A stretch of 21,496 nucleotides of DNA, taken from positions 1-21,496 of the IMG/VR virus record IMGVR_UViG_3300017725_000094; one strand, written 5' to 3'. A model generated the notes under the pieces. The model saw nothing but the letters and a program-made list of their open reading frames with translations, ran no database searches and was not told the DNA's origin. Below, piece by piece: positions 8,798-16,827 of the stretch. Origin of the DNA: a virus. Numbering within the stretch: position 1 is the stretch's first letter; every line of letters starts with the position of its first letter. The position numbers were made by a program, and so were the translations under genes.

Positions 8798-9652
8798 TTA
8801 AAAATCCTCCAAGTTATTCATGAGTGAAGTCAAATCGTTTGTGACAAAGTAGTCAATCGATAACTTTGTTTTATCATTACTATTTAACACTTTAAATTTA
8901 TCTACTATTTCTCGGCGCAATTCTTCTGGTATACAATCAAGATCAATAAGAATTTTATTTCTATAGTAGTTATCTAGTTTTTCTTGAGTGTTACAAAAAA
9001 CAGTTGGACTAGAATAAATCCACTTCTCTAGATTCTTCTTACTTATTGGTCGTTGCCTTTTATTGGTAACGAAAGTATCATCAGAAGAAAGGAAGTTAGG
9101 GATACCATCAGAACGATCACCTTTGATGATGTGTTCTGCAATGTATTCGATTGGATTGATATCTTTTACAAAATTCTTTTGTAATGGATTGTATTGACTT
9201 ACAACAGGAAACTTTTTCAACTGTATAAAGTCTTTATCGCCAGAAAGAATTAAAATTTTCTCATCTGAGATATCAGAAGAGTATTTACATAAAGCACTAA
9301 TGATGTCATCCGCTTCTGCACCACTTACTTCCATTACTATGTAAGGAAAATTGTTTCGGATTTCATCACGAATTTTGTTTAGAACTTCAAAGATTGCATT
9401 CCAATCATGATTGGATTTTTCTCTGTCTTTTTTTCTGTTTTGTTTATAGAAAGGAAAATAGTCCTTGCGCCAATAGTGTTTACTATCATAACAAAGGACC
9501 ATATCTCCGTACTCTTCCCTAAATTTTCTGTTGTAAGATCTTAGGGAATTGAGTACCATATGTCGGACTAGTTTTTCATCTAGTTTGTCACCGACTTTAA
9601 TTTGCATCATCAAATTGCTGATCATGCACTGATTCATATCAACAAGAATCAT
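8798..9652 (-). CDS. rnh: RNase H / 5'-3' flap exonuclease (T4 Rnh)
   Basis: The 284-residue product is the T4 RNase H-type 5' nuclease, which removes RNA primers and short flaps during lagging-strand synthesis, assisted by gp32. The metal site acidic residues are visible: Asp5 (ILVDMNQ), Asp55 region (LCYDSKHYWRKDYFP), Glu-Ala-Asp-Asp at about 111-115 (SGAEADDII) and ILSGDKDFIQL at about 133-143. Next comes a helix-hairpin-helix area around GDRSDGIPNF. The T4 enzyme is 305 residues. It is second in its unit, after a membrane protein. In T4 it lies just before dsbA-33-59-32; here the thyX operon separates them. Confidence 0.93.
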   Translation of the reverse strand: MILVDMNQCMISNLMMQIKVGDKLDEKLVRHMVLNSLRSYNRKFREEYGDMVLCYDSKHYWRKDYFPFYKQNRKKDREKSNHDWNAIFEVLNKIRDEIRNNFPYIVMEVSGAEADDIISALCKYSSDISDEKILILSGDKDFIQLKKFPVVSQYNPLQKNFVKDINPIEYIAEHIIKGDRSDGIPNFLSSDDTFVTNKRQRPISKKNLEKWIYSSPTVFCNTQEKLDNYYRNKILIDLDCIPEELRREIVDKFKVLNSNDKTKLSIDYFVTNDLTSLMNNLEDF

Positions 9653-9656
9653 GATC

Positions 9657-9890
9657 TTAATTCATAGGGTCATCGTAATCTTCGTCGTCTTCTTCTGACA
9701 AGAAATTAAGTGTTAATAGTTCCTCTTGGTTGACAGTGCCATCTGGGTTTAACATTTCTGGATGTGTTATTGCCTTTGCATATGCAGCATTATCAATGAA
9801 GGCATCGATATAGTCTTTGGCAATCCAAGAAGTTAATGTTCCCATGAGAAATGCTCCGAGAACAACGAACACATAAACAGCTATCGTCAT
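9657..9890 (-). CDS. Small membrane protein, conserved in cyanophages
   Basis: The 77-residue protein has one N-terminal membrane helix (about residues 4-24, IAVYVFVVLGAFLMGTLTSW), a middle amphipathic segment, and a very acidic C-terminus (SEEDDEDYDDPMN). The orientation is probably N-out. The pattern VLGAFLMGTLTSWIAKDYI I have seen in other cyanophages. Function is unknown. A ribosome site (GGAG) precedes the ATG by 8 bases. It is the first gene of the RNase H unit, transcribed from a full-consensus sigma70 promoter and a possible late promoter, so it may be expressed throughout infection. Confidence 0.8.
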   Translation of the reverse strand: MTIAVYVFVVLGAFLMGTLTSWIAKDYIDAFIDNAAYAKAITHPEMLNPDGTVNQEELLTLNFLSEEDDEDYDDPMN

Positions 9891-9950
9891 TGGTTTACTC
9901 CGTTATTGTTCAAATAATCTGAGAAAAATAATTGTCCCTCTATAGGTCTA

Positions 9951-9958
9951 TATTTATT
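9951..9958 (-). promoter_or_regulatory. Putative T4-type late promoter for the RNase H unit
   Basis: The minus strand reads AATAAATA, matching the NATAAATA late consensus of cyanomyoviruses, about 60 bases before the first gene. It lies in the leader of the sigma70 promoter at 9998-10026. With gp33 encoded nearby and gp55 expected elsewhere, it could add late expression. The short motif could be chance. Confidence 0.45.
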
Positions 9959-9997
9959 TAGAGACAAGTGAAGAAGACTGCGATTGATTTCACATCA

Positions 9998-10026
9998 ATT
10001 ATACTACGATATCGTCCACTTGTCAA
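9998..10026 (-). promoter_or_regulatory. Full-consensus sigma70 promoter of the RNase H unit
   Basis: Minus strand: TTGACA at 10021-10026, 17 bases, TATAAT at 9998-10003, with both hexamers perfect. The TGA in the -35 box is the stop codon of the glutaredoxin gene. An 8-base inverted repeat, CACTTGTC at 10017-10024 and GACAAGTG at 9962-9969, includes the -35 box. The region 9891-10022 otherwise holds only this promoter, the late-like motif and the leader. Confidence 0.9.
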
Positions 10027-10415
10027 ATGGCTTTATTTTCTCTCAGGTAATTCAGGGTATCCTTAAATCCACCAACATGCGTTTGACCAAAATTTACCTG
10101 TGGAAAAGTTGCTTGATCTCCAAACTCCTGTTTGAATTGATTACGTGTGAAATCTGTATCTAATTTATATTCCAAATATCTAATTTCAAGACTATCCAAT
10201 AACATTTTAGCACGATCACACCACTGACATTCATTCTTTGAATATAGAACTACGTCAGGTAAATTTGTTTTTGTCATAATTGTTTTCAACCAACAGGGTT
10301 TGCATAGTGAATTTTTATATTTAGTTTCAGATGGAACGTAACATCCAACTTGAGGACACTCATTTGCTGGTGTCATCTTACCACACCCAGAGCACTTTGT
10401 CTCCCACATCTTCAT
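10023..10415 (-). CDS. Glutaredoxin fused to an N-terminal zinc ribbon
   Basis: The 130-residue product has a four-Cys putative zinc site (C8, C11 in KCSGCGK; C38, C41 in LCKPCW), then a glutaredoxin domain from about residue 53 with active site C63-Q-W-C66, cis-Pro in ATFPQVNF and the glutathione-binding GGF near 115. Redox partner roles include reducing the phage ribonucleotide reductase NrdA. Most cyanophage glutaredoxins lack such a ribbon, so this is an unusual extended form. The start ATG overlaps the preceding stop (ATGA). The stop TGA is in the next promoter. Confidence 0.88.
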   Translation of the reverse strand: MKMWETKCSGCGKMTPANECPQVGCYVPSETKYKNSLCKPCWLKTIMTKTNLPDVVLYSKNECQWCDRAKMLLDSLEIRYLEYKLDTDFTRNQFKQEFGDQATFPQVNFGQTHVGGFKDTLNYLRENKAI

Positions 10416-10711
10416 AATGTTCTCTCAAGTCTATTCGTTGCTTGGTCTGGGAAGTCTCTAGGACGACTATCAGTAGCATTATCAGTCTTAGGTGAACCTT
10501 CATTCGCCTTCATTGTATGCTGATAATTAGGTCTTGGATATCTAATACAGAATGGATCAGGCATCCAATAGGTAACTTGCCATTCTTGTTCAGGACATAA
10601 CTCAAGATGTTTCTCTACACTATGAGAGAAAATACCAATTTGAATGTATCCATCGTGACTCAGACATCTACCATTACCAATGTCAACTAGGAATAGCATT
10701 TTACTGCTCAT
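10412..10711 (-). CDS. Hypothetical protein (99 aa)
   Basis: The gene is called from the ATG at 10711, which overlaps the upstream 43-codon gene by 4 bases (ATGA); the longer open frame uses a TTG and lies inside that gene. The 99-residue protein starts MSSKMLFLVDIGNGRCLSHD and contains HSVEKHLELCPEQEWQVTYW and MPDPFCIRYPRPN, then a disordered basic tail with RPRDFPDQATNR. No family recognised. The Cys/His content is not arranged as an obvious zinc site. Confidence 0.65.
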   Translation of the reverse strand: MSSKMLFLVDIGNGRCLSHDGYIQIGIFSHSVEKHLELCPEQEWQVTYWMPDPFCIRYPRPNYQHTMKANEGSPKTDNATDSRPRDFPDQATNRLERTL

Positions 10712-10839
10712 AACACTACTTGCTCTGGGTTGAGATTTTTTACAAATTGCACAGGATCCTTTTCTGATTTGTGTACCCAATGATACCGTATCATCTCAAA
10801 GATAGGATCCCATGTTTCCACACAAACATAATCTTTCAT
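10708..10839 (-). CDS. Small hypothetical ORF (43 aa)
   Basis: ATG at 10839 overlaps the stop of the 34-codon ORF by 4 bases, and its own TGA at 10708-10710 overlaps the next ATG. This chain of ATGA joints is strong context evidence that the small ORF is real. The product begins MKDYVCVETWDPIFEMIRYH and ends with PVQFVKNLNPEQVVL. It resembles nothing known to me. No clear ribosome site exists, so it is probably translated by coupling. Confidence 0.6.
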   Translation of the reverse strand: MKDYVCVETWDPIFEMIRYHWVHKSEKDPVQFVKNLNPEQVVL

Positions 10840-10940
10840 GTGTGTCTCGCAGCAAGTTCTTTAAGTTCCTTCGCTGTGAGTTTATCCAACCTCTCTGTGA
10901 AGTGGTCCAACAGTAATTGTTTGTATTCTTTCTTAGTCAC
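10836..10940 (-). CDS. Small hypothetical ORF with GTG start (34 aa)
   Basis: GTG at 10940, preceded by a perfect ribosome site (GGAGG, 4 bases), begins a 34-residue peptide reading (M)TKKEYKQLLLDHFTERLD and ending with LTAKELKELAARHT. It is a short amphipathic, basic helix. The GTG overlaps the stop of the 104-residue gene by 8 bases, and its TGA overlaps the next ATG. Function unknown. Confidence 0.65.
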   Translation of the reverse strand: MTKKEYKQLLLDHFTERLDKLTAKELKELAARHT

Positions 10941-11247
10941 GTTGCCTCCAATCATCAGGTTTGTCTTGCTGAAACCATTCTAACACATCATCAGCTGATG
11001 TAAACCCCTTCTTATGTTTGGATGGATCGGGGTCTCCTAAACCCATCCTATTCAGAAAATCGTCTGTACTACCTTCCTCAATCTGTTGTGAAGATTGTCT
11101 TCGTGCCTTTTGTAACCAGTCCCTAGCAAGTGTATGAGACTTAGCAAGTTTCTCTGCCCAGATCATGTCATCTAGTTTTACCTCGTCACCATCGGCGATC
11201 TTTTTACAGATACCTTCTAATCGAAGGCGATACTGAGTTGATAGCAT
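10933..11247 (-). CDS. Conserved hypothetical protein (104 aa)
   Basis: This 104-residue protein starts MLSTQYRLRLEGICKKIADG and contains VKLDDMIWAEKLAKSHTLAR then DWLQKARRQ. A disordered middle is followed by FLNRMGLGDPDPS and VLEWFQQDKPDDW. The N-terminal half is helical; the rest is probably a flexible tail. I have seen similar proteins in cyanophages without function. Upstream is a terminator, and no clear promoter or ribosome site was found. It heads a chain of five overlapping genes ending in glutaredoxin. Confidence 0.7.
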   Translation of the reverse strand: MLSTQYRLRLEGICKKIADGDEVKLDDMIWAEKLAKSHTLARDWLQKARRQSSQQIEEGSTDDFLNRMGLGDPDPSKHKKGFTSADDVLEWFQQDKPDDWRQRD

Positions 11248-11290
11248 ATTATTAATCTGTTTTTACAAATTTGTCTTCCCTGATTATATA

Positions 11291-11321
11291 TAAAAAAATA
11301 GGGATAGTTGTTAACTATCCC
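11291..11321 (-). terminator. Intrinsic terminator after the 46-aa gene
   Basis: Minus strand: a perfect 9-pair stem (GGGATAGTT at 11313-11321 with AACTATCCC at 11301-11309) with a 3-base loop, then a stretch of A and seven T. The TAA stop of the 46-codon gene overlaps the stem-loop junction. Confidence 0.85.
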
Positions 11322-11451
11322 CGTTATGGTCATGATTATCAAGTCGTGATTCTAAGTTAGCAAGACTAACAAGTATCTTCATATTTTCTAATTCGATATC
11401 TACAAGTCTTTTTTCATACTTCTCTATAATTTTTTTTAATTTCTTTTTCAT
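11311..11451 (-). CDS. Small coiled-coil-like ORF (46 aa)
   Basis: The ATG at 11451 overlaps the previous stop (ATGA). The 46-residue product is highly charged, starts MKKKLKKIIEKYEKRLVDIE, continues LENMKILVSLANLESRLDNH and ends DHNGDS. The heptad-like spacing of I, L and V suggests a short coiled coil. The TAA stop lies in the terminator hairpin. No family recognised. Confidence 0.6.
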   Translation of the reverse strand: MKKKLKKIIEKYEKRLVDIELENMKILVSLANLESRLDNHDHNGDS

Positions 11452-11678
11452 CAGTAATCCATGTCTCCACCATAGCGGATGCAGGTCTTTTTGTTTTCTG
11501 CTGATGATCTACACCACTGTCTCACGTAACTATCTGCATCCATATTCATTTTATAATGAGCATGGTTATGCAGTGCCCCTATCAGTGCTATCATCCCCAG
11601 CAGTGTCAGGGAGGTTAGCGTTCCTGGATTTGTTATGAATGTTATGAAGTATTTTTTCATAAAAAAAGGGGTCGTCAT
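11451..11678 (-). CDS. Small membrane protein (75 or 69 aa)
   Basis: A membrane helix at about residues 20-37 (TSLTLLGMIALIGALHNHAH) is followed by a soluble tail with C-x-RSSAENKKTC-x-RYGGD, which may form one disulfide or metal pair. The first ATG (11678) lies inside the stem of the upstream terminator, 2 bases after GAGGGG, a plausible ribosome site but too close. A second ATG (11660) directly after the T run gives 69 residues, MKKYFITF. Which one is used is unclear. Expression would require read-through of the terminator or a missed promoter. Confidence 0.6.
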   Translation of the reverse strand: MTTPFFMKKYFITFITNPGTLTSLTLLGMIALIGALHNHAHYKMNMDADSYVRQWCRSSAENKKTCIRYGGDMDY

Positions 11679-11684
11679 GACCCC
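11661..11684 (-). terminator. Intrinsic terminator after the beta-barrel gene
   Basis: Minus strand: GGGGTC, 5-base loop, GACCCC, then seven T (11661-11667). It lies 22 bases after the stop of the secreted protein gene. The loop contains the first ATG of the next gene. Confidence 0.85.
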
Positions 11685-11705
11685 TCTCTATCATATTACA
11701 ACTTA

Positions 11706-12077
11706 TCAGAAGCTGTACTTAAGACCCAACTTCGTTCCGTAACCGCGATCGATGTTGTCATCACCACTACCAACGAAGGAGACTTCACCATAAGCACCCA
11801 GTGCCTCGGTCAAACCGATACCAAGACCTGCCTTACCAGAAGGAACGGTATCACTCTCGCCACCATCAGGAGAGACGACGGTAGCACCACCTTGGACGTA
11901 GTATGAAGCGTTTTCACCAAGAGCACCTTCATAACCAACGTGAAGGTCAGTTGCGGTTCCATTGTAGCTGGATCCAGTGAATCCTGAGTTAGCTTCAACG
12001 TTGACGTAGGGACCAGCGAAAGCGGCACCAGCGGATGCGAACAGAGCAGCGGAGGCTGCGAATACAGATTTGATCAT
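11706..12077 (-). CDS. Secreted outer-membrane beta-barrel-like protein
   Basis: The 123-residue product has a clear signal peptide (MIKSVFAASAALFASAGAAFA, cut expected after residue 21). The mature 102 residues alternate aromatic/hydrophobic and polar residues, rich in Gly (YVNVEANSGF, ATDLHVGYEG, SYYVQGGATVV, LGAYGEVSFVG), and end in KLGLKYSF, with a terminal Phe like outer-membrane proteins. It is shorter than OmpX-type barrels, so six to eight short strands are likely. Codon use is GC-richer, favouring GCT/GCC/GGT, unlike its neighbours, which suggests high expression or host origin. It has its own promoter, a structured leader, a strong ribosome site (AAGGAAA) and a terminator. Function inferred: a host-surface protein made in infection. 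Confidence 0.8.
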   Translation of the reverse strand: MIKSVFAASAALFASAGAAFAGPYVNVEANSGFTGSSYNGTATDLHVGYEGALGENASYYVQGGATVVSPDGGESDTVPSGKAGLGIGLTEALGAYGEVSFVGSGDDNIDRGYGTKLGLKYSF

Positions 12078-12100
12078 TTTAATTTCCTTTAAATATGTCT

Positions 12101-12176
12101 CGTGGAGTATCCCACGGATGAAAGAGAGATCGACGTTCTCTCGTTAAATATAACCTTCTGATATTTGGAGAAGGTT
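12101..12176 (-). promoter_or_regulatory. Structured 5' leader with three hairpins
   Basis: In the roughly 100-base leader before the beta-barrel gene, three perfect hairpins lie in a row: 12169-12176 with 12152-12159 (8 pairs), 12137-12142 with 12124-12129 (6 pairs), and 12112-12116 with 12101-12105 (5 pairs). There is no T run after any of them, so they are not terminators. They could stabilise the mRNA or control translation. Confidence 0.6.
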
Positions 12177-12179
12177 AAG

Positions 12180-12187
12180 TATTTATA
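12180..12187 (-). promoter_or_regulatory. T4-type late promoter for the beta-barrel gene
   Basis: The minus strand reads TATAAATA, a perfect late-promoter consensus. It overlaps the -10 box of the sigma70-type promoter at 12185-12213, so the gene may be read both early and late. Confidence 0.65.
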
Positions 12188-12213
12188 CTAACAGATTTTT
12201 TTAAATCTGTCAA
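12185..12213 (-). promoter_or_regulatory. Sigma70-type promoter of the beta-barrel gene
   Basis: Minus strand: TTGACA at 12208-12213, 17 bases, TAGTAT at 12185-12190. The spacer, with the end of the -35 box, contains ACAGATTT and AAATCTGT, an 8-base inverted repeat. The TGA of the -35 box is the stop codon of the 73-residue gene. It is fused to a perfect late promoter. Confidence 0.75.
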
Positions 12214-12431
12214 GTAGTTGAACCAGCAATCATTTCGGAAGAAACTTTATTGATCAACTGGTCTTTTAGATTATAGGACAAACGGTGGTGTTCTGTCAAG
12301 ACGTAGTAACCAATTAACTTTGAACCATCATCTAACCACCCATATGACAAGACTCGCTCATTAATATCATGATCATCAAGCAGTTTGTCGGTATGTAAGT
12401 AGTGGCCGTACGTCTGGTGCAAATTTTTCAT
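12210..12431 (-). CDS. Hypothetical protein (73 aa)
   Basis: The 73-residue protein begins MKNLHQTYGHYLHTDKLLDD and contains RVLSYGWLDDGSKLIGYYVL then EHHRLSYNLKDQLINKVSSE. It looks soluble and has many His and Tyr. No family recognised. No ribosome site precedes the ATG: the upstream bases are T-rich, so translation may use a leaderless or non-canonical path. A strong -35/-10 pair with an 18-base spacer lies inside the gene (12270-12299). Confidence 0.65.
   Translation of the reverse strand: MKNLHQTYGHYLHTDKLLDDHDINERVLSYGWLDDGSKLIGYYVLTEHHRLSYNLKDQLINKVSSEMIAGSTT
12270..12299 (-). promoter_or_regulatory. Possible intragenic sigma70 promoter
   Basis: Minus strand inside the 73-residue gene: TTGACA at 12294-12299, 18 bases, TATAAT at 12270-12275. 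Both hexamers are perfect. It would give a second, longer transcript of the beta-barrel gene. Chance within a coding region cannot be excluded. Confidence 0.45.
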
Positions 12432-12524
12432 AGACTTGAAAGAAAAAGAATTTGGTTAGAACCTTCTTATTTTATAACAGTTTCTACCTACCTTTGTGTG
12501 GATATTAAGATAATGTTACTTTTA

Positions 12525-12614
12525 TTATCCTTGCGTCTCGTCTCCCGATTGTGTCATCATTGCAGCAGTAATAAATGTAGCTACCAGTATTCCAACAGTT
12601 GCGAGTAGTGCCAT
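12525..12614 (-). CDS. Tiny membrane peptide (29 aa)
   Basis: ATG at 12614 begins a peptide of one membrane helix (MALLATVGILVATFITAAMM) with a short polar tail, TQSGDETQG. It recalls in size the small one-helix photosystem or cytochrome b6f subunits, but I cannot match it to PsbX, PetN, PetG or others. It lies in the photosynthesis segment, and a perfect late promoter stands 22 bases upstream. No ribosome site is clear (A-rich stretch). Confidence 0.55.
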   Translation of the reverse strand: MALLATVGILVATFITAAMMTQSGDETQG

Positions 12615-12634
12615 TTTTATTATGCAAAGAGTAG

Positions 12635-12784
12635 TTATTTATACTTATCCTTTGATTTATTGATGACAATTATCTTGGTTCCATCATGTGTGAACTGTAG
12701 TTCATCATCTGGGTCCCAGAGTAATTCCTCATACAGATCATCTAACTTCTGCATGTCTTCATACAGTTGGTTTGGATTAGGCAT
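12635..12784 (-). CDS. Small acidic hypothetical protein (49 aa)
   Basis: ATG at 12784 overlaps the end of the 107-residue gene by 8 bases. The product, MPNPNQLYEDMQKLDDLYEE and later LQFTHDGTKIIVINKSKDKYK, is 49 residues. It looks like a helix plus a beta hairpin. The longer open frame in this region has an unlikely start. I recall a similar protein in other cyanophages near petF, without function. The stop codon is inside a late-promoter motif. Confidence 0.65.
   Translation of the reverse strand: MPNPNQLYEDMQKLDDLYEELLWDPDDELQFTHDGTKIIVINKSKDKYK
12636..12643 (-). promoter_or_regulatory. T4-type late promoter upstream of the 29-aa ORF
   Basis: The minus strand reads TATAAATA; the TAA stop of the 49-residue gene shares its last bases (TAT AAA TAA). 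The start codon of the next ORF is 22 bases downstream, a fitting distance for a late transcript. Confidence 0.6.
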
Positions 12785-13100
12785 TTGTTTTACTATCTGA
12801 TTCACATGAATGATGAGGTTTGTGTTCTCTATCCATAGGTTTAGAAGACTCAAAAGGATCTCGTGAGAGATTTTTGATAACAATGAATGCTTCTTTATTG
12901 TACTTGCGAGTACCAATAGGTGATTGCCATTTCTTGTTATAGACTTCACCAACATCGATACCAGAAACCTGAGTTCCTGCCATTTCAACTACGATATTAT
13001 CACCTTCTTCCCACCCATATTTTTGGGCAAGAAAGGCAACCTGTTCGTTTATGGTAGGTGATTCCATAATACGTTCTTCTGGATCAAGTTTTCCAATCAT
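12777..13100 (-). CDS. Conserved hypothetical protein (107 aa)
   Basis: The 107-residue protein begins [20 protein letters not shown], then VAFLAQKYGWEEGDNIVVEM and GTRKYNKEAFIVIKNLS, with a basic His-rich tail (DREHKPHHSCESDSK). The start codon shares one base with the ferredoxin stop (TAATG), which supports coupling. An alternative start is M12. I see a compact alpha/beta domain followed by a disordered tail. Its constant neighbour is ferredoxin, but no function can be inferred. Confidence 0.7.
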   Translation of the reverse strand: MIGKLDPEERIMESPTINEQVAFLAQKYGWEEGDNIVVEMAGTQVSGIDVGEVYNKKWQSPIGTRKYNKEAFIVIKNLSRDPFESSKPMDREHKPHHSCESDSKTNA

Positions 13101-13390
13101 TAGTAAAGACTCTCTTCTTGTTCAGCTTGAATTGTAACATCAGAAGTTGGGTATGCAACACAAGTGAGTACAAATCCCGCTTCGATTTGATCATCATCCA
13201 AGAATGATTGATCACTTTGATCTACTGTACCAGAAACAATCTTACCAGCACACGTAGAACAAGCACCAGCACGGCAGGAATAGGGGAGATCTAATCCTGC
13301 CTCATCACAGGCATCAAGAATGTACTGGTCATCTTCACATGTAATGGTTTTGGTTTCTTCAGAAGAGATTAAAGTAACATTGTAAGTCAT
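13100..13390 (-). CDS. petF: Plant-type [2Fe-2S] ferredoxin PetF
   Basis: The 96-residue product is a plant/cyanobacterial ferredoxin. The cluster Cys are C39, C44, C47 ([15 protein letters not shown]) and C77 (VLTCVAYP), with standard spacing. The N-terminal [14 protein letters not shown] strand and the acidic C-terminus (AEQEESLY) fit docking to photosystem I and reductases. It is a known cyanophage gene that may keep electron flow going to ribonucleotide reductase, phycobilin synthesis (ferredoxin-dependent bilin reductases) or other acceptors. It is transcribed from its own promoter at 13413-13441 and followed immediately by a conserved hypothetical gene. Confidence 0.97.
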
Positions 13391-13412
13391 AAAATTAATT
13401 TAACTGTGATGA

Positions 13413-13441
13413 ATTTTACTCTCTATATAGACAAATGTCAA
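13413..13441 (-). promoter_or_regulatory. Sigma70-type promoter of petF
   Basis: Minus strand: TTGACA at 13436-13441, 17 bases, TAAAAT at 13413-13418, about 20 bases before the ATG. The spacer contains the palindrome TCTATATAGA (13422-13431), and GACA/TGTC arms overlap the -35. The TGA of the -35 box is the stop codon of the 44-residue gene. Confidence 0.82.
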
Positions 13442-13572
13442 GAGGTGGGAGAGGCTTGATAGACAGGTGTCATCATACCACCACCTGGTCCATCATTATC
13501 ATCATCAATTTCATCTTGGGATAAACTCCAAACGATAAATCCCAAGATCATTGTTGCTGATAAGATTAACAT
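13438..13572 (-). CDS. Small membrane-anchored ORF (44 aa), conserved with hli/petF
   Basis: ATG at 13572 directly follows the TAA of the Hli gene. The 44-residue peptide has a membrane helix (MLILSATMILGFIVWSLS), then an acidic run (QDEIDDDNDGPGGG) and MMTPVYQASPTS. I remember the same helix, acidic run and GPGGG pattern in other cyanophages near hli and petF, without function. Its stop TGA sits in the petF -35 box. Confidence 0.65.
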   Translation of the reverse strand: MLILSATMILGFIVWSLSQDEIDDDNDGPGGGMMTPVYQASPTS

Positions 13573-13680
13573 TTACCATACTCCTGGAATAATTTGACCT
13601 GTGACTGCATAACTACCCATTGCTGCGATGACTCCGAGCATTGCTGCCCAACCGTTGATGCGTTCTGCGTTTTCGTTCAT
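13573..13680 (-). CDS. hli: Short high-light-inducible protein (35 aa)
   Basis: The gene is short: ATG at 13680 preceded by GGAGAACAATC. The product begins MNENAERINGWAAMLGVIAA and ends with MGSYAVTGQIIPGVW. It carries the Hli/LHC chlorophyll-binding signature ExxNGxxAMxG in one helix, with E5, N9, G10, W11 and A13-M14-L15-G16; here the canonical R of NGR is replaced by W. Cyanophage Hli proteins of this size are thought to dissipate excess light energy and protect photosystem II. It overlaps the upstream gene by 4 bases. Confidence 0.9.
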   Translation of the reverse strand: MNENAERINGWAAMLGVIAAMGSYAVTGQIIPGVW

Positions 13681-13892
13681 GATTGTTCTCCTAGTGTAAG
13701 ATAAAATTTGGTTTGATCTGATGGTGAGTTCTCGTAGATGGAACTATCACCATACTCTTTGTGGTCTTTGTATCCAACCATACGACCTTTCGTATTTTGG
13801 ATGGCTCCCATCATAGCAATGATGAGGAAGATTGCAGGTGGTCCAATGATAAGAGCTCCACCAATCACATAATAAGTCAGTAGTTCAATCAT
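13677..13892 (-). CDS. Membrane protein between two hli genes (71 aa)
   Basis: The 71-residue protein has one long hydrophobic helix (about residues 5-32: LTYYVIGGALIIGPPAIFLI...AMMGAI) with a central GPP kink, then a basic segment (QNTKGRMVGYKDHKEYGD) and a polar tail. Its place between two hli genes, overlapping both by 4 bases or one base, suggests a thylakoid role. I recall it in other cyanophages as hypothetical. No chlorophyll-binding motif is present. Confidence 0.75.
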   Translation of the reverse strand: MIELLTYYVIGGALIIGPPAIFLIIAMMGAIQNTKGRMVGYKDHKEYGDSSIYENSPSDQTKFYLTLGEQS

Positions 13893-14110
13893 CAGAATCC
13901 GAACGCTCCAAAGAAAAATACGCTACCACTGAAAGCATAAGAGACAACAGCAGCAACAAATCCAACCATAGCAGTCCTTCCATTTAGTTTCTCTGCACGT
14001 TCTGCATATGTTTCGTATCCATAGCGTTCTGCTTCTGTTGGATCAACATACATGCGAGGTTCTGTTGCCCACATGTTTGTACGTCCACCATCTTCAGTTG
14101 TTACAGTCAT
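13892..14110 (-). CDS. hli: High-light-inducible protein (72 aa)
   Basis: This 72-residue protein carries YAERAEKLNGRTAMVGFVAA, the Hli signature (E, N, G, R, A-M-x-G), in a single membrane helix ending SGSVFFFGAFGF. The N-terminal 35 residues are polar and include RMYVDPTEAERYGYE, which resembles longer cyanobacterial Hli/Scp proteins. In infected cells such proteins bind chlorophyll and carotenoids near photosystem II and limit photodamage. A strong ribosome site (GGAG) precedes the ATG. It is the first gene of the photosynthesis unit, under a full-consensus promoter with a palindrome at the -35. Confidence 0.93.
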   Translation of the reverse strand: MTVTTEDGGRTNMWATEPRMYVDPTEAERYGYETYAERAEKLNGRTAMVGFVAAVVSYAFSGSVFFFGAFGF

Positions 14111-14137
14111 GTTACACTCCGTAATGAATCTTTACAT

Positions 14138-14166
14138 ATTATATAGGAAACCTGGAGTTTTGTCAA
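14138..14166 (-). promoter_or_regulatory. Full-consensus sigma70 promoter of the hli unit
   Basis: Minus strand: TTGACA at 14161-14166, 17 bases, TATAAT at 14138-14143; both perfect. The -35 is half of a 9+9 inverted repeat (14161-14179). This should be one of the strongest early promoters in the window. Confidence 0.92.
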
Positions 14167-14179
14167 GACTGTCTTGACA
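14161..14179. repeat. Perfect 19-base dyad at the hli promoter
   Basis: TGTCAAGAC, one base, GTCTTGACA: a perfect inverted repeat that includes the -35 hexamer in both orientations. It is positioned like an operator. It lies between tRNA-Gly and the promoter; on the RNA side it could also act as the 3' hairpin of the upstream unit, but no T run follows. Confidence 0.8.
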
Positions 14180-14190
14180 TTGAAATAAAA

Positions 14191-14260
14191 GCGGAATGTC
14201 GGAATCGAACCGACGACGAAAGGTTGGAAACCTTTAGTTTTGCCTCTAAACTAATCCCGC
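14191..14260 (-). tRNA. tRNA-Gly (UCC anticodon)
   Basis: Minus strand starts GCGGGAT and ends ATTCCGC, pairing with one G-U. The anticodon arm is AAAGG, loop TTTCCAA, CCTTT, giving anticodon UCC (reads GGA/GGG). The T arm is GTCGG-TTCGATT-CCGAC. Discriminator is U73, usual for bacterial tRNA-Gly; CCA is not encoded. It is the last gene of the tRNA/cpeT unit. GGA is a favoured codon in AT-rich phage genes. Confidence 0.93.
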
Positions 14261-14271
14261 AATGGGGGTTG

Positions 14272-14367
14272 TCACACCCCAGAGCACATGCACGCCACCA
14301 ATTCTTTACTGGAAATTGGAAACCAGGCGGCGATATCTTCACCCGCACCAGTACTGTTAACGTCCAT
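14272..14367 (-). CDS. Possible small ORF or RNA element (31 aa)
   Basis: Between cpeT and tRNA-Gly, an ORF from ATG 14367 encodes MDVNSTGAGEDIAAWFPISS, then KELVACMCSGV. The DNA is visibly richer in G+C than its neighbours. No ribosome site is present. The same stretch has two small hairpins: CCAATT/AATTGG and GGGGT/ACCCC. I do not recognise the peptide. It may be a real small gene, a remnant of a longer one, or an RNA element before the tRNA. Confidence 0.35.
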   Translation of the reverse strand: MDVNSTGAGEDIAAWFPISSKELVACMCSGV

Positions 14368-14383
14368 CCGTGACGAAAGTTAT

Positions 14384-14848
14384 CTAACTAACTGGAGTAA
14401 ACTTAATATGACCATACTTAGAACCCCAAACAATATTTTTCTTGACAGGATCAATACCAACATCAATAATATTATAGTAACCTTCACCAATACGAATATC
14501 GCACTGTTGATATGCTTTGATATTACCTACTTCCACCCAACAATTCTTGCATGTATTATGCCCATACCATTCACCATCAGACTGCAGTTCAAAAACTAAA
14601 TCGCATCCCTGACGATATACCATGTCTTTATCATACATCCTAGAATTAATTTTCTTATCACCATCATATGTAAATTTAGTGACATACTCTTTATAAGGTT
14701 GATCTTCATCAAACTTGTATGATTGAGTACATCTAAAGGTGTCTGTATCAATCTTTTCGTTTTTAATTACAATCCAAGCCCATTGAGTTCCAGACATAGC
14801 CTGGTCTTTATTCTCAAAAGTACCAGTAAAAAGTTCTTCAAATGTCAT
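14384..14848 (-). CDS. cpeT: CpeT/CpcT-family bilin lyase homologue
   Basis: The 154-residue product resembles cyanophage CpeT and the host CpcT/CpeT T-type phycobiliprotein lyases, which help attach bilin chromophores to phycoerythrin/phycocyanin beta subunits. The N-terminus TFEELFTGTFENKDQAMS fits the G-x-F-x-N-x-x-QA motif. Later, PYKEYVTKF, then YRQGCDLVFELQSDGEWYG and an NCWVEVGNIKAY segment precede the C-terminal DVGIDPVKKNIVWGSKYGHI, with the family's WGS-x-x-G-x-F/I pattern. It has the usual phage length (host proteins are near 200). It suggests a phycobilisome-bearing host such as Synechococcus, though phages of Prochlorococcus also carry it. Confidence 0.85.
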   Translation of the reverse strand: MTFEELFTGTFENKDQAMSGTQWAWIVIKNEKIDTDTFRCTQSYKFDEDQPYKEYVTKFTYDGDKKINSRMYDKDMVYRQGCDLVFELQSDGEWYGHNTCKNCWVEVGNIKAYQQCDIRIGEGYYNIIDVGIDPVKKNIVWGSKYGHIKFTPVS

Positions 14849-14849
14849 T

Positions 14850-15050
14850 TTAAGAAGCGTCGTTGTGAGTTTTGTACATCGATAGATCTGTATTCAGATC
14901 ATTAATAGCTTCTCCATACTCATCAGCAGGAACCATTGCTACTAGTCTACCATCTTCTTGTTCAATAAAAAATGTTTCACCAGATTCACATCGATCCATA
15001 TAATGATCGAAGTTTTTTTCCATCTCTGCGATTTTAATAGTTTCAGGCAT
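14850..15050 (-). CDS. Phd/YefM-type antitoxin without a visible toxin
   Basis: The 66-residue protein has the Phd/YefM fold: IKIAEMEKNFDHYMDRCESG (start-helix, Y/F at positions 14-17), ETFFIEQEDGRLVAMVPADE, then a polar C-terminal tail that would bind the toxin. This is the pattern of type II antitoxins, e.g. M-x-I-x-x-x-E-x-x-x-x...GE-x-x-x-I-x-x-x-G-x-x-x-A-x-x-x-P. The adjacent genes (59-residue and cpeT) do not look like RelE, Doc or PIN toxins. It probably neutralises a host toxin or acts as a regulator. The ATG follows the upstream TAA directly. Confidence 0.85.
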   Translation of the reverse strand: MPETIKIAEMEKNFDHYMDRCESGETFFIEQEDGRLVAMVPADEYGEAINDLNTDLSMYKTHNDAS

Positions 15051-15230
15051 TTATTTAAATTCAGTATTACGTCTGGTATTTAAATGGGATAGTACTTCAC
15101 TTCTCCATTCCATGAGTTCATCAAAACATTCTTGATTATGAGCACATGCTCTAAGTTTGCTATCTGGTTTCAATACACTTTCGTAGAAAAGATTGAAAGC
15201 ATCACGCCGTTTTTGTTCCCGTGGGTTCAT
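15051..15230 (-). CDS. Small basic hypothetical protein (59 aa)
   Basis: ATG at 15230 has a ribosome site (GAGGA, 8 bases away). The product, MNPREQKRRDAFNLFYESVL then KPDSKLRACAHNQECFDELM and EWRSEVLSHLNTRRNTEFK, is 59 residues, helical, with three Cys/His-containing positions. It directly precedes the antitoxin (TAA-ATG), so it could be a partner, but does not match known toxin folds. Function unknown. Confidence 0.7.
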   Translation of the reverse strand: MNPREQKRRDAFNLFYESVLKPDSKLRACAHNQECFDELMEWRSEVLSHLNTRRNTEFK

Positions 15231-15354
15231 TAAAGTAGTCCTCTAAATGATTAAGTTGGATCCAATCTTCAGCATGATCATAACAATCAAACCATACGAT
15301 TCTATTTTCGTAACAAATATACCAGCGATTTGTTAGACTATCAAAAGAAATCAT
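15202..15354 (-). CDS. Small hypothetical ORF (50 aa)
   Basis: ATG at 15354 begins MISFDSLTNRWYICYENRIV then WFDCYDHAEDWIQLNHLEDY and FNEPTGTKTA, 50 residues, rich in Trp and Tyr. The 29-base overlap with the next gene, in another frame, is longer than elsewhere here, and there is no ribosome site. The pattern of aromatic residues looks like a folded mini-domain rather than noise. It is the first ORF after the three tRNAs. Confidence 0.5.
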   Translation of the reverse strand: MISFDSLTNRWYICYENRIVWFDCYDHAEDWIQLNHLEDYFNEPTGTKTA

Positions 15355-15371
15355 AATAACATTTTATATAG

Positions 15372-15388
15372 ACCGAAATTAATTCGGT
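15372..15388 (-). other. Hairpin after tRNA-Asn
   Basis: Minus strand ACCGAA, 5 bases, TTCGGT: 6 pairs, 3 bases beyond the 3' end of tRNA-Asn. No T run follows, so it is more likely a processing or stability element than a terminator. Confidence 0.5.
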
Positions 15389-15390
15389 AA

Positions 15391-15463
15391 CTCCTCCACC
15401 TGGACTCGAACCAGGGACAGGGTGATTAACAGTCACCTGCTCTACCAACTGAGCTATAGAGGA
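15391..15463 (-). tRNA. tRNA-Asn (GUU anticodon)
   Basis: Minus strand TCCTCTA pairs with TGGAGGA (one G-U). D-arm is AGCTCAGTTGGTAGAGC, and the anticodon loop CTGTTAA reads GUU. T arm CCTGG-TTCGAGT-CCAGG; discriminator G73. CCA is not encoded. It is third in a tRNA cluster (Arg, Thr, Asn) with 2-6 base gaps. Confidence 0.95.
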
Positions 15464-15468
15464 TTGAG

Positions 15469-15540
15469 AGCCTCTGACAAGATTTGAACTTGCGACCTGA
15501 GCTTTACAAAAGCCCTGCTCTACCACTGAGCTACGGAGGC
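15469..15540 (-). tRNA. tRNA-Thr (UGU anticodon)
   Basis: Minus strand GCCTCCG pairs with CAGAGGC, with one C-A mismatch at pair 6-67. D-arm is AGCTCAGTGGTAGAGC; the anticodon loop TTTGTAA gives UGU (reads ACA). T arm GCAAG-TTCAAAT-CTTGT with one G-U. CCA is not encoded. The mismatch and weak T arm suggest some divergence, but the structure is otherwise complete. Confidence 0.9.
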
Positions 15541-15542
15541 AA

Positions 15543-15615
15543 CGACTCAGGTTGGGGTCGAACCAACGACCGACTGCTTAGAAGGCAGTTGCTCTGTCCA
15601 CTGAGCTACTGAGTC
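15543..15615 (-). tRNA. tRNA-Arg (UCU anticodon)
   Basis: Minus strand GACTCAG pairs fully with CTGAGTC. D-arm AGCTCAGTGGACAGAGC; anticodon loop CTTCTAA gives UCU (reads AGA/AGG). T arm GTTGG-TTCGACC-CCAAC; discriminator G73. Its first 10 bases contain the end of the 67-residue gene, including the TAG stop. AGA is frequent in AT-rich phage genes and rare in many hosts. Confidence 0.95.
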
Positions 15616-15809
15616 TTGTTTTGTTCTCTCTTGAGTTTGAAGTACATACTATAGTATGTTTTCTTCATTTTGTCAATAGTTTCCATGTCATCTTTGAATC
15701 CCATATACTTAAGAAGTTGGGATGATCCCTCAAGTTCACTGATTAATCTTAATATGTTAGCAGGGTGTCTTTCAAGACCACCGAAATCATATTTGGATAG
15801 AGAAGTCAT
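15606..15809 (-). CDS. Hypothetical protein overlapping tRNA-Arg (67 aa)
   Basis: The 67-residue protein begins MTSLSKYDFGGLERHPANIL and contains RLISELEGSSQLLKYMGFKD then MKKTYYSMYFKLKREQNKTQ. It is helical and basic. Its TAG stop lies in the D-stem junction of tRNA-Arg, so the coding sequence and the tRNA share 10 bases. The ATG overlaps the preceding stop (ATGA). Function unknown. The mRNA is expected to be cut by RNase P at the tRNA 5' end, removing the stop codon from the message. Confidence 0.7.
   Translation of the reverse strand: MTSLSKYDFGGLERHPANILRLISELEGSSQLLKYMGFKDDMETIDKMKKTYYSMYFKLKREQNKTQ
15644..15659. repeat. 16-base palindrome over a -10 box
   Basis: A perfect palindrome with ACATACTA and its complement TAGTATGT centred at 15651/15652. 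It lies over the -10 box of the possible tRNA promoter, inside the coding end of the 67-residue gene. Confidence 0.7.
15648..15676 (-). promoter_or_regulatory. Possible sigma70 promoter for the tRNA cluster
   Basis: Minus strand: TTGACA at 15671-15676, 17 bases, TATAGT at 15648-15653, inside the 67-residue gene and about 32 bases before tRNA-Arg. A transcript from here would start just before the tRNA. The palindrome on its -10 box could bind a regulator. Confidence 0.6.
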
Positions 15810-16024
15810 GTGTAGTATGCTTGATAGTATTTTACAATACCATCAGATCTCATATTTCCTTGCGAAACCCAGTCGTGACAACACTCTGTGATTGACTCCA
15901 TATTATATATGGGCGTTCCATCAATGTCAATTTGAGATCCAAATTGTGCAAGAAGAATTTTATAAACGTCTTGACGTAATTTTAATTTTTCTTCTGAGTA
16001 ACGCCAGTCATTGATTTGTGACAT
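15806..16024 (-). CDS. Conserved hypothetical protein (72 aa)
   Basis: This 72-residue protein reads MSQINDWRYSEEKLKLRQDV, then YKILLAQFGSQIDIDGTPIY and ITECCHDWVSQGNMRSDGIV followed by KYYQAYYT. The C-terminal segment with H-D-W-V-x-x-G-N looks conserved in cyanophages. It is soluble and helical. Both ends make short overlaps or gaps with neighbours. A perfect-consensus promoter is inside it. Confidence 0.7.
   Translation of the reverse strand: MSQINDWRYSEEKLKLRQDVYKILLAQFGSQIDIDGTPIYNMESITECCHDWVSQGNMRSDGIVKYYQAYYT
15902..15930 (-). promoter_or_regulatory. Possible intragenic full-consensus sigma70 promoter
   Basis: Minus strand: TTGACA at 15925-15930, 17 bases, TATAAT at 15902-15907, inside the 72-residue gene. 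Both hexamers are perfect. It would drive the 67-residue gene, three tRNAs and the downstream antitoxin and cpeT. Confidence 0.6.
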
Positions 16025-16030
16025 TTTTAA

Positions 16031-16309
16031 TTAATAAGAGTTAGGTGATTGGAAGTTCTCAGACCCACCAGGCGGGTTCATCTGGATAGTTGTAGGACTA
16101 TTTTGAGTGGCAACCTCATACATCATCTGATGAATGTTCTCTGGTTCCTTTGCCTGTACAGACCAAGATCCACCAACACCCCCATCCATATTTACAATGA
16201 TGTCATCAAATTCTTCGATTAGTTTTTTTTGTTCCATTTGTGTTTCTGTCAAAATTGGTTCACTAAACCATTCATCATAAGATAAAAAAATTGGTGCTGG
16301 ATAAGTCAT
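16031..16309 (-). CDS. Hypothetical protein (92 aa)
   Basis: The 92-residue protein begins MTYPAPIFLSYDEWFSEPIL and contains EFDDIIVNMDGGVGGSWSVQ then a disordered polar tail, QMNPPGGSENFQSPNSY. The ATG overlaps the SleB-like gene stop by 4 bases. No family recognised. It may have a role linked to the hydrolase, but this is only context. Confidence 0.65.
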   Translation of the reverse strand: MTYPAPIFLSYDEWFSEPILTETQMEQKKLIEEFDDIIVNMDGGVGGSWSVQAKEPENIHQMMYEVATQNSPTTIQMNPPGGSENFQSPNSY

Positions 16310-16695
16310 GTTTGCCAGTGATAGTGATAGAAGTTTCCTTTACGATCACACATAGGATCTTCTGCAACTACACGATAAGGCAACATACGTTGTCCTTTGA
16401 AACTGGTTCTGTCACCAATAATCGAGTATGCTTCCAGAAGTTTTTCTGTGTTCTTTAACCTAGCAACTACACTAGGTTTAGCAGCTGGACGACGGTAGAT
16501 AAAACCTTCGTATTGTCCAGGAGCATAAACTACGTCAGCAACAGTATTAGGGAATGCAGGAGAGTTGACCCTGTTAAGAATAGAAACTGCAACGCAGTAT
16601 TCATCTTTAGTTCCAGTTGCTGCCTCAACTTGCACTGTTCGTGCAAGATGATCATAGTCAATGGCACTGAGTGCTAAGATAGTTTCAAGAATCAT
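16306..16695 (-). CDS. SleB/CwlJ-like cell wall hydrolase
   Basis: The 129-residue product resembles the Hydrolase_2 (SleB/CwlJ) domain. Seen are LARTVQVEAATGTKDEYCVA, with catalytic-type Glu24 (VEAATG, as in family E-A-x-G), then VSILNRVNSPAFPNTVADVV, YAPGQYEGF, and a C-terminal AEDPMCDRKGNFYHYHWQT. These are the usual V-x-x-V-I-x-x-x-x-QF-like core segments. In bacteria the domain cleaves cortex peptidoglycan; in cyanophages such enzymes are taken to aid lysis or entry. There is no signal peptide, so export would need a holin or tail delivery. It lies 18 bases after tRNA-Val in the same transcript. Confidence 0.85.
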   Translation of the reverse strand: MILETILALSAIDYDHLARTVQVEAATGTKDEYCVAVSILNRVNSPAFPNTVADVVYAPGQYEGFIYRRPAAKPSVVARLKNTEKLLEAYSIIGDRTSFKGQRMLPYRVVAEDPMCDRKGNFYHYHWQT

Positions 16696-16713
16696 AGTTA
16701 TAAAATGTATAGA

Positions 16714-16785
16714 TGGGTGAAGAGGGACTTGAACCCCCGGCCGCCTCCGTGTAAAGGAGATGCTCTACCACTGAGCTATTCACCC
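16714..16785 (-). tRNA. tRNA-Val (UAC anticodon)
   Basis: Minus strand GGGTGAA pairs with TTCACCC. D-arm AGCTCAGTGGTAGAGC; anticodon stem TCTCC/GGAGG with loop TTTACAC gives UAC (reads GTA/GTG). T arm GGGGG-TTCAAGT-CCCTC with a mismatch; discriminator A73. CCA is not encoded. It is the first gene after a perfect promoter and heads the accessory unit. Confidence 0.93.
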
Positions 16786-16798
16786 TCACGACCTTTCA

Positions 16799-16827
16799 AT
16801 TATAACAGGTCTGTTAAGCGGTGTCAA
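16799..16827 (-). promoter_or_regulatory. Full-consensus sigma70 promoter of the tRNA/accessory unit
   Basis: Minus strand: TTGACA at 16822-16827, 17 bases, TATAAT at 16799-16804, both perfect, about 14 bases before tRNA-Val. The TGA of the -35 is the stop codon of the 67-residue gene at 16824-17027. Confidence 0.92.

Follow-up and report, generated by a model that had tools for sequence, protein, structure and literature searches.

What does the small gene at positions 11,706 to 12,187 of this viral DNA encode, and by which means is its expression governed? The whole stretch analysed here, referred to as the window, is a viral record of 21,496 bases from a T4-like cyanophage; its bases 9500-13500, the 4,001 that surround the gene, have matches in 261 phage records, which bear the names Synechococcus (214), Cyanophage (43) and Prochlorococcus (4). 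An earlier note on this DNA proposed a secreted beta-barrel-like protein, expressed from a dual promoter behind a leader with three hairpins. Our analysis supports this outline in almost all of its details, and it reveals that the second and third hairpins constitute a conserved RNA element tied to the gene, which the earlier note had missed. The coding part of the locus comprises the following features.

11709..12077, minus strand: Phage_OMP coding sequence (DUF680/PhCOG173), 123 amino acids, stop codon at 11706-11708 (PF24653, PHROG 417)
12015..12077, minus strand: hydrophobic signal peptide, residues 1-21, judged from the sequence; residues 1-18 form the low-confidence N-terminus of the structural model
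11709..11732, minus strand: C-terminal KLGLKYSF, with K116, G118 and F123 invariant in 34 aligned sequences

The protein belongs to the Pfam family PF24653 (Phage_OMP), entitled 'Cyanophage outer membrane protein like beta barrel domain', which it matches above the curated cut-off over the entire profile (E 6.8e-50, 168.8 bits against a cut-off of 27; residues 1-123 on profile positions 1-122 of 122). It also matches PHROG 417, a group of unknown function (E 6.6e-55), and its relatives in phage records are often labelled 'DUF680 domain-containing protein' and in some cases T4-GC 241. Compared with PF24653, DUF680, PhCOG173, T4-GC 241 and PHROG 417, the window protein is a full-length member that shows no difference at the protein level, whereas a leader RNA goes unmentioned in the family line of PF24653. 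The secreted beta-barrel protein is an already named family and is known in kind. A tblastn search at E<=1e-3 found it in 462 of 50,697 phage records (472 at E<=1), which by name were Synechococcus (356), Cyanophage (72), Prochlorococcus (24), Marine (8) and uncultured (2). T7-like podoviruses are among the carriers, and in the two such records examined the gene adjoins psbA and lies near capsid genes. Three cellular contigs from metagenome-assembled genomes, L103, L104 and L105, labelled Rhodobacteraceae, Lewinella and Euryarchaeota and detected with a single peptide pattern, encode the protein as well and are probably mis-binned phage contigs.

The open reading frame starts with MIKSVFAASAALFASAGAAFA, in which AFA precedes the putative cleavage site, continues with GP and closes with Phe, in agreement with the signal peptide and terminal Phe claimed earlier. 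The C-terminal KLGLKYSF presumably represents the beta-signal motif for barrel assembly. Together, the signal peptide and the terminal-Phe signal point to a putative outer-membrane location of the product. The high expression proposed in the earlier note is likewise a prediction from sequence features. The GC-richer codons were likewise confirmed: the GC content of the reading frame is 0.516 against 0.370 for the window, and its GC3 of 0.427 exceeds that of all 12 other reading frames compared (0.247-0.362).

Structure prediction was in line with these signals. An AlphaFold2 model built on a 34-sequence alignment showed an N-terminus that is disordered, followed by six strands (mean pLDDT 76.0, pTM 0.64), and a model of a divergent member again gave six strands (pLDDT 75.6, pTM 0.64). 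The sole sequence match of the protein in the PDB had an E-value of 1.2, and Foldseek returned no match among solved structures at E<=0.001, the best being OmpX at E 0.013; eleven matches at E<=0.001 were obtained in BFVD, including 'cyanophage outer membrane protein-like' and 'DUF680' proteins. By VIA-align, the first model was closest to OprF (Z 10.2, rmsd 3.2, 101 aligned residues) and OmpA (Z 9.9, rmsd 3.3, 104 aligned), followed by OmpX (Z 9.3, rmsd 4.0, 105 aligned), with avidin-like barrels below OprF and OmpA at about 6.9; OprF also came first for the second model (Z 9.8, rmsd 3.5, 105 aligned). The secreted beta-barrel-like product of the earlier note is thus well supported by membership in PF24653 and by two models which, at moderate confidence, adopt a beta-barrel-like fold with OprF and OmpA as best structural matches. 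OprF, OmpA and OmpX share with Phage_OMP long antiparallel strands, a signal peptide and a terminal Phe, but they have eight strands, whereas the Phage_OMP models have six in about 100 residues. A single-chain barrel of the outer membrane has at least eight strands, and the six strands therefore suggest that strands of the barrel were under-predicted or that the chain is one subunit of a multi-chain barrel. Superpositions of smaller rmsd were obtained with the ten-stranded barrels OpcA (2.3 over 104 residues) and TMB10 (1.8 over 87); this closer fit hints at an open sheet that might pair with another subunit, a lead rather than a result.

Four features flank the gene and bear on its transcription.

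12185..12213, minus strand: sigma70-type promoter TTGACA-17-TAGTAT, 10 of 12 matches
12180..12187, minus strand: T4-type late promoter TATAAATA, overlapping the -10 box, recognised from the sequence
12151..12177, minus strand: hairpin 1, directly after the late promoter, -9.2 kcal/mol, z -3.59
11661..11684, minus strand: intrinsic terminator GGGGTC-ATGAC-GACCCC with a tract of seven T (hairpin 11684-11668), -17.5 kcal/mol, z -4.35, with 0 of 200 shuffles as good

The late-type box TATAAATA occurs three times on the minus strand of the window and not at all on the plus strand. The window holds 71 sigma70-like sites against 69.6 expected from shuffles, so that a sigma70 site alone means little. 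A composite site, in which TTGAC is followed at -10 spacing by a late-type box, is nevertheless found upstream of the gene in 25 of 71 distinct leaders, and this, along with the overlap at the -10 box, bears out the fusion of a sigma70 promoter to a late promoter described before. Five perfect 12/12 sigma70 sites lie at 9998-16827 of the window, all on the minus (coding) strand, in a total that stays at chance level. Promoters differ from phage to phage, since beside the composite 35 of the 71 distinct leaders have TATAAATA no more than 200 nt from the ATG (36 lack it there) and 15 of the 71 have CTCAAYTA upstream; the leader element described below stays while the promoters change. CTCAAYTA may be an activator site, a candidate Pho box; predicted Pho boxes in phages are unreliable according to a warning in the accessible text of PMC10976474. 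At the other end of the gene, the hairpin and T tract after the stop codon give good support to a terminator of its own, although a pattern scan for terminators did not list the hairpin 11684-11668. The next reading frame (11451-11678, minus strand) in its longest reading begins within the terminator loop; its PHROG 2587 match begins at residue 10, which makes ATG 11660 the likelier start.

The late promoter, together with the location of the gene among capsid and photosynthesis genes in two podoviruses, would suit a structural protein of the virion whose leader serves late expression only. The literature, as far as its accessible text goes, is mixed: two peptides of the protein were found in the virion proteome of S-SZBM1 (PMC9146016), and in S-TIM4 the protein is listed as not particle-associated, with mutant alleles there reaching about 100% (PMC6224464). 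The earlier note had regarded confinement of the product to virions as evidence against its proposal, and these reports together do not describe such confinement. The signal peptide and the beta-signal also speak against a virion role, as do the 36 distinct leaders without TATAAATA in the 200 nt before the ATG, and we consider it very unlikely.

Between the promoters and the start codon, the leader contains the following elements.

12096..12148, minus strand: conserved two-hairpin leader element (model R1), 57.9 bits, E 1.1e-14, the next best match in the window scoring 9.7 bits
12124..12142, minus strand: hairpin A, the second hairpin of the earlier note, a 6-bp covarying stem with GUCGA in the loop, from the alignment
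12117..12120, minus strand: linker CAUC, present in 62/62 distinct leaders and 59/59 model-found leaders
12101..12116, minus strand: hairpin B, the third hairpin of the earlier note, a 5-bp covarying stem with a G-U pair, from the alignment
12085..12089, minus strand: Shine-Dalgarno-like AAGGA in the A-rich gap before the ATG, from the sequence

R1 is a covariance model whose training set includes the window's own copy. The element was present in 86 of the 91 leaders examined (the window, 80 IMG/VR loci and 10 named records), in 62 distinct forms. It was absent from the podoviruses S-TIP37 and NATL2A-133, from DSL-LC02 and ACG-2014f, and from locus L040, which has 10 nt upstream; the former four were judged by eye, with the model in agreement, and were omitted from the pattern count of 86/87. 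The locating pattern was written after viewing the sequences and demands CATC[CT]G, and the complete conservation of CAUC in the first set is therefore partly built in; an earlier version of the pattern caught 29 distinct leaders only. GUCG, in or beside one loop before the linker, was found in 60/62 distinct leaders (missing from two) and in 59/59 of a second set, where the longer GUCGA occurred in just 17/59.

Comparative analysis revealed strong support for both stems. Over the 11 pairs of hairpins A and B in the first set, standard pairing was observed in 94.1% of cells against 75.5% in shuffled alignments (0/500 as high), and the covariation score was 0.574 against 0.257 when shuffled (0/500) and at most 0.226 when slid. 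Changes on both sides were seen in 10 of the 11 pairs, a weaker measure that 32/500 shuffles equalled. RNAalifold alone returned the same stems, with A one pair shorter and B carrying an extra G-U pair, which is G-U in 57/62 and G-C in 5/62 of the distinct leaders. In the second set of 59 leaders, mainly from the MED4-213 clade, the same two hairpins were recovered unprompted (92.0% paired against 75.6% shuffled; covariation 0.518, with 0.220 after shuffling and no more than 0.174 after sliding). The folding energy of the single leader sequence (12175-12060, with most of hairpin 1 included) was unremarkable (z -1.21) and alone would have dismissed the leader; it is the comparison that establishes the hairpins as real.

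Hairpin 1 behaves differently, being kept as a shape, since its stems persist while sequences differ. Among the 25 distinct leaders where the segment from the late-type box to the element could be cut out, 22 segments folded at p<=0.05 against 100 dinucleotide shuffles each (mean z -3.76). All three hairpins of the earlier note are hence upheld, the first by stem conservation and the other two by covariation. A pseudoknot of the GUCG loop with the linker or tail was not seen by eye. In a few leaders of MED4-213 type (L106, L111 and L126, upstream of 1430), a further similar block, GAAAGATCGTaaCCCTgCGTaGA, precedes the element.

The second set came from further searches with the protein; R1 matched the leaders of 75 out of 85 of these loci at E 0.022 or better, three of the 88 loci (L127, L130 and L157) being without leader DNA. 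Ten loci were left unmatched by R1, namely L144, with 20 nt upstream, L150, L152, L162, L168 and L186-L190. The second alignment retained 59 of the 75 matches after omission of repeats and several members near the first set; two members of this clade (L087 and L091) were already in the training set of R1, and the motif of L108 also occurs, letter for letter, in the first set. Searches of whole records with R1 were positive in 10/14 and 9/10 records, with one strong match each, located before the gene, and two weak second matches (E 0.087 and 0.053). R1 detected the element in none of the 80 loci of podovirus type, of which 70 extend at least 100 nt upstream, nor in the ACG-2014f and DSL-LC02 records, which implies that the protein can do without it.

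Apart from the second group of whole records (9/10), the leaders above were reached via the protein, so that their association with the gene holds by construction. A DNA pattern search, which is independent of the protein, is the other exception: it found at least 120 places, and in 120/120 of those listed the protein is encoded within 700 nt downstream. The listed matches represent 110 distinct places, of which 94 were new, and 18/120 fell in earlier loci. Covariation and this association demonstrate that the element is a genuine RNA structure under selection and linked to the gene, and the link to a single gene favours a gene-specific role over one in a regulon.

The distance from the end of the element to the ATG is 14-26 nt in the distinct leaders (median 19), and a Shine-Dalgarno-like site lies in this gap in 51 of 66. 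The ribosome region (-18..+6) is modestly open, with a mean unpaired probability of 0.66 against 0.45 for the element, and of 0.53 against 0.43 in the window. This arrangement of element, Shine-Dalgarno-like site and open ribosome region fits a control of translation or of mRNA decay. The element may merely stabilise the mRNA. In E. coli, hairpins near the 5' end of the ompA leader block RNase E and raise expression. That leader likewise places hairpins and then an open ribosome site on the mRNA of an outer-membrane barrel, and a passive stabiliser of this kind, which no regulator reads, would agree with the sequence-variable hairpin after the late-type box in most segments and with a ribosome site that lies within an A-rich, partly open gap. 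The cyanophage element differs from the ompA leader, with which no homology is claimed, by its strongly conserved loop and linker letters. A passive stem would have no need of the GUCG and CAUC conserved in both sets, and the conservation of unpaired letters favours recognition by a reader over a simple roadblock; nor would passive stabilisation account for pattern matches that, among those listed, all precede a single gene. On balance we regard a purely passive leader as rather doubtful.

The element appears to be undescribed. At the gathering score, Rfam gave no match in the window leader or, at 12 additional loci, in the element, which 8 of them carry, and at E<=10 the only matches in the window, L059 and L106 were far under their cut-offs; by these scans the element falls outside known cis-regulatory families including wcaG, PhotoRC-II and Glutamine-II. 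Open-access titles, abstracts and passages among the best-ranked literature matches contained no description of it. With covarying stems and a fixed position before one kind of gene, it would qualify as a structured cis-regulatory leader RNA in the general sense. The closest parallels are wcaG and PhotoRC-II (RF01761 and RF01717), structured 5' leaders that, in the accessible text of PMC2864571 and PMC9602691, stand before host-modifying genes of T4-like cyanophages; the present element matches neither in Rfam, and the pattern matches listed all precede Phage_OMP.

Glutamine-II riboswitches (RF01704) are found near the protein gene and psbA in the podoviruses NATL2A-133 (L083, 3809-3864) and S-TIP37 (L082, 5411-5464). 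In NATL2A-133 the riboswitch lies upstream of the Phage_OMP gene, from which a short reading frame seems to separate it, but it is a different RNA from the myovirus element. A glutamine-aptamer likeness of the UUCAUC-hairpin-AAGUA stretch was rejected, as there was no such Rfam match in the myovirus leaders scanned.

The element could itself be a metabolite or ion riboswitch that senses the nutrient state, for instance phosphate, and adjusts the amount of barrel. It is a short, compact RNA with conserved unpaired letters directly upstream of the ribosome site, the same gene has glutamine riboswitches nearby in podoviruses, and the accessible text of PMC6224464 and PMC9146016 ties the gene to phosphorus. 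Yet it measures only about 50 nt, consists of two separate hairpins with no junction, shows no expression platform and, among the pattern matches listed, precedes one gene only, which makes a riboswitch quite unlikely.

The interpretation that we favour, and hold to be rather probable, combines a secreted outer-membrane barrel, an mRNA made from overlapping promoters and a selected two-hairpin element that gives gene-specific post-transcriptional control. The leader is best read as a new gene-specific cis-acting RNA that would act on the stability or translation of an outer-membrane-barrel mRNA. Under this scheme, the gene would be transcribed from an overlapping host-type and phage-late promoter, and the mRNA would open with a simple, perhaps protective hairpin. 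The two-hairpin element would follow, some 20 nt upstream of the start codon, and leave the ribosome site partly open within A-rich sequence, and a trans-acting factor, be it an RNA-binding protein of host or phage or a small RNA of the host, may read the GUCG loop, the CAUC linker and hairpin B and thereby set the lifetime or translation of the mRNA. Most likely, the host Sec system exports the product, which then folds into the outer membrane of the host, either as a short beta-barrel or as one subunit of a barrel. Such a barrel, costly in rich conditions, would be made only when useful, plausibly under phosphorus shortage. A more far-reaching version is tentative at best: a new RNA class confined to T4-like cyanophages and marine viral contigs and to one gene, which senses the state of the cell through a ligand, a small RNA or an RNA-binding protein, so that a six-strand, multi-chain barrel, in contrast to the small barrels made of one chain, would remodel the host surface only in shortage of nutrients such as phosphorus.

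As to the role of the barrel, the passages of PMC6224464 at hand report that S-TIM4 on Synechococcus WH8102 acquired 13 mutations in the gene, many of them disruptive and cumulatively reaching about 100% per population; its authors speculate on a fitness cost in nutrient-replete conditions and cite a role in phosphate limitation. PMC9146016, in its accessible part, cites reports of upstream pho boxes. The DUF680 cluster was present in 7/17 T4-like phages and over-represented at BATS together with pstS, according to the text available from PMC3686209; a table row in the accessible part of PMC3037559, read as DUF680 in 15/16 cyanophages, disagrees with that count. The effect on nutrient uptake suggested by the earlier note thus receives indirect support, limited to published statements on phosphorus. 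Of the two functions, we place a nutrient-related role in the outer membrane ahead of superinfection exclusion, and our confidence in each is low.

Small surface barrels could block superinfection. Occlusion of a receptor on the host surface, the other function suggested earlier, would agree with the predicted fold; the disruption of the gene during laboratory passage (accessible text of PMC6224464) suggests a condition-dependent cost rather than a general need, and we judge this role unlikely.

The leader element suggests an undescribed way of controlling the Phage_OMP gene. A conserved RNA before the gene suggests that gene dose is under strong selection, and it offers a handle for finding the controller. 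If confirmed, the element would connect host-surface remodelling to regulatory RNA and extend the short list of T4-like cyanophage RNA elements given in the accessible text of PMC9602691.

Other RNA features were observed elsewhere on the minus strand of the window. A wcaG leader RNA (RF01761, 54.1 bits) lies at 14284-14382, with a tRNA (14190-14260) and a reading frame (13892-14110) downstream; the latter has a chlorophyll a/b-binding match below threshold (E 0.0023) and probably encodes a high-light-inducible protein. Four tRNA genes (15391-15463, 15469-15540, 15543-15615 and 16714-16785) are located amid small reading frames.
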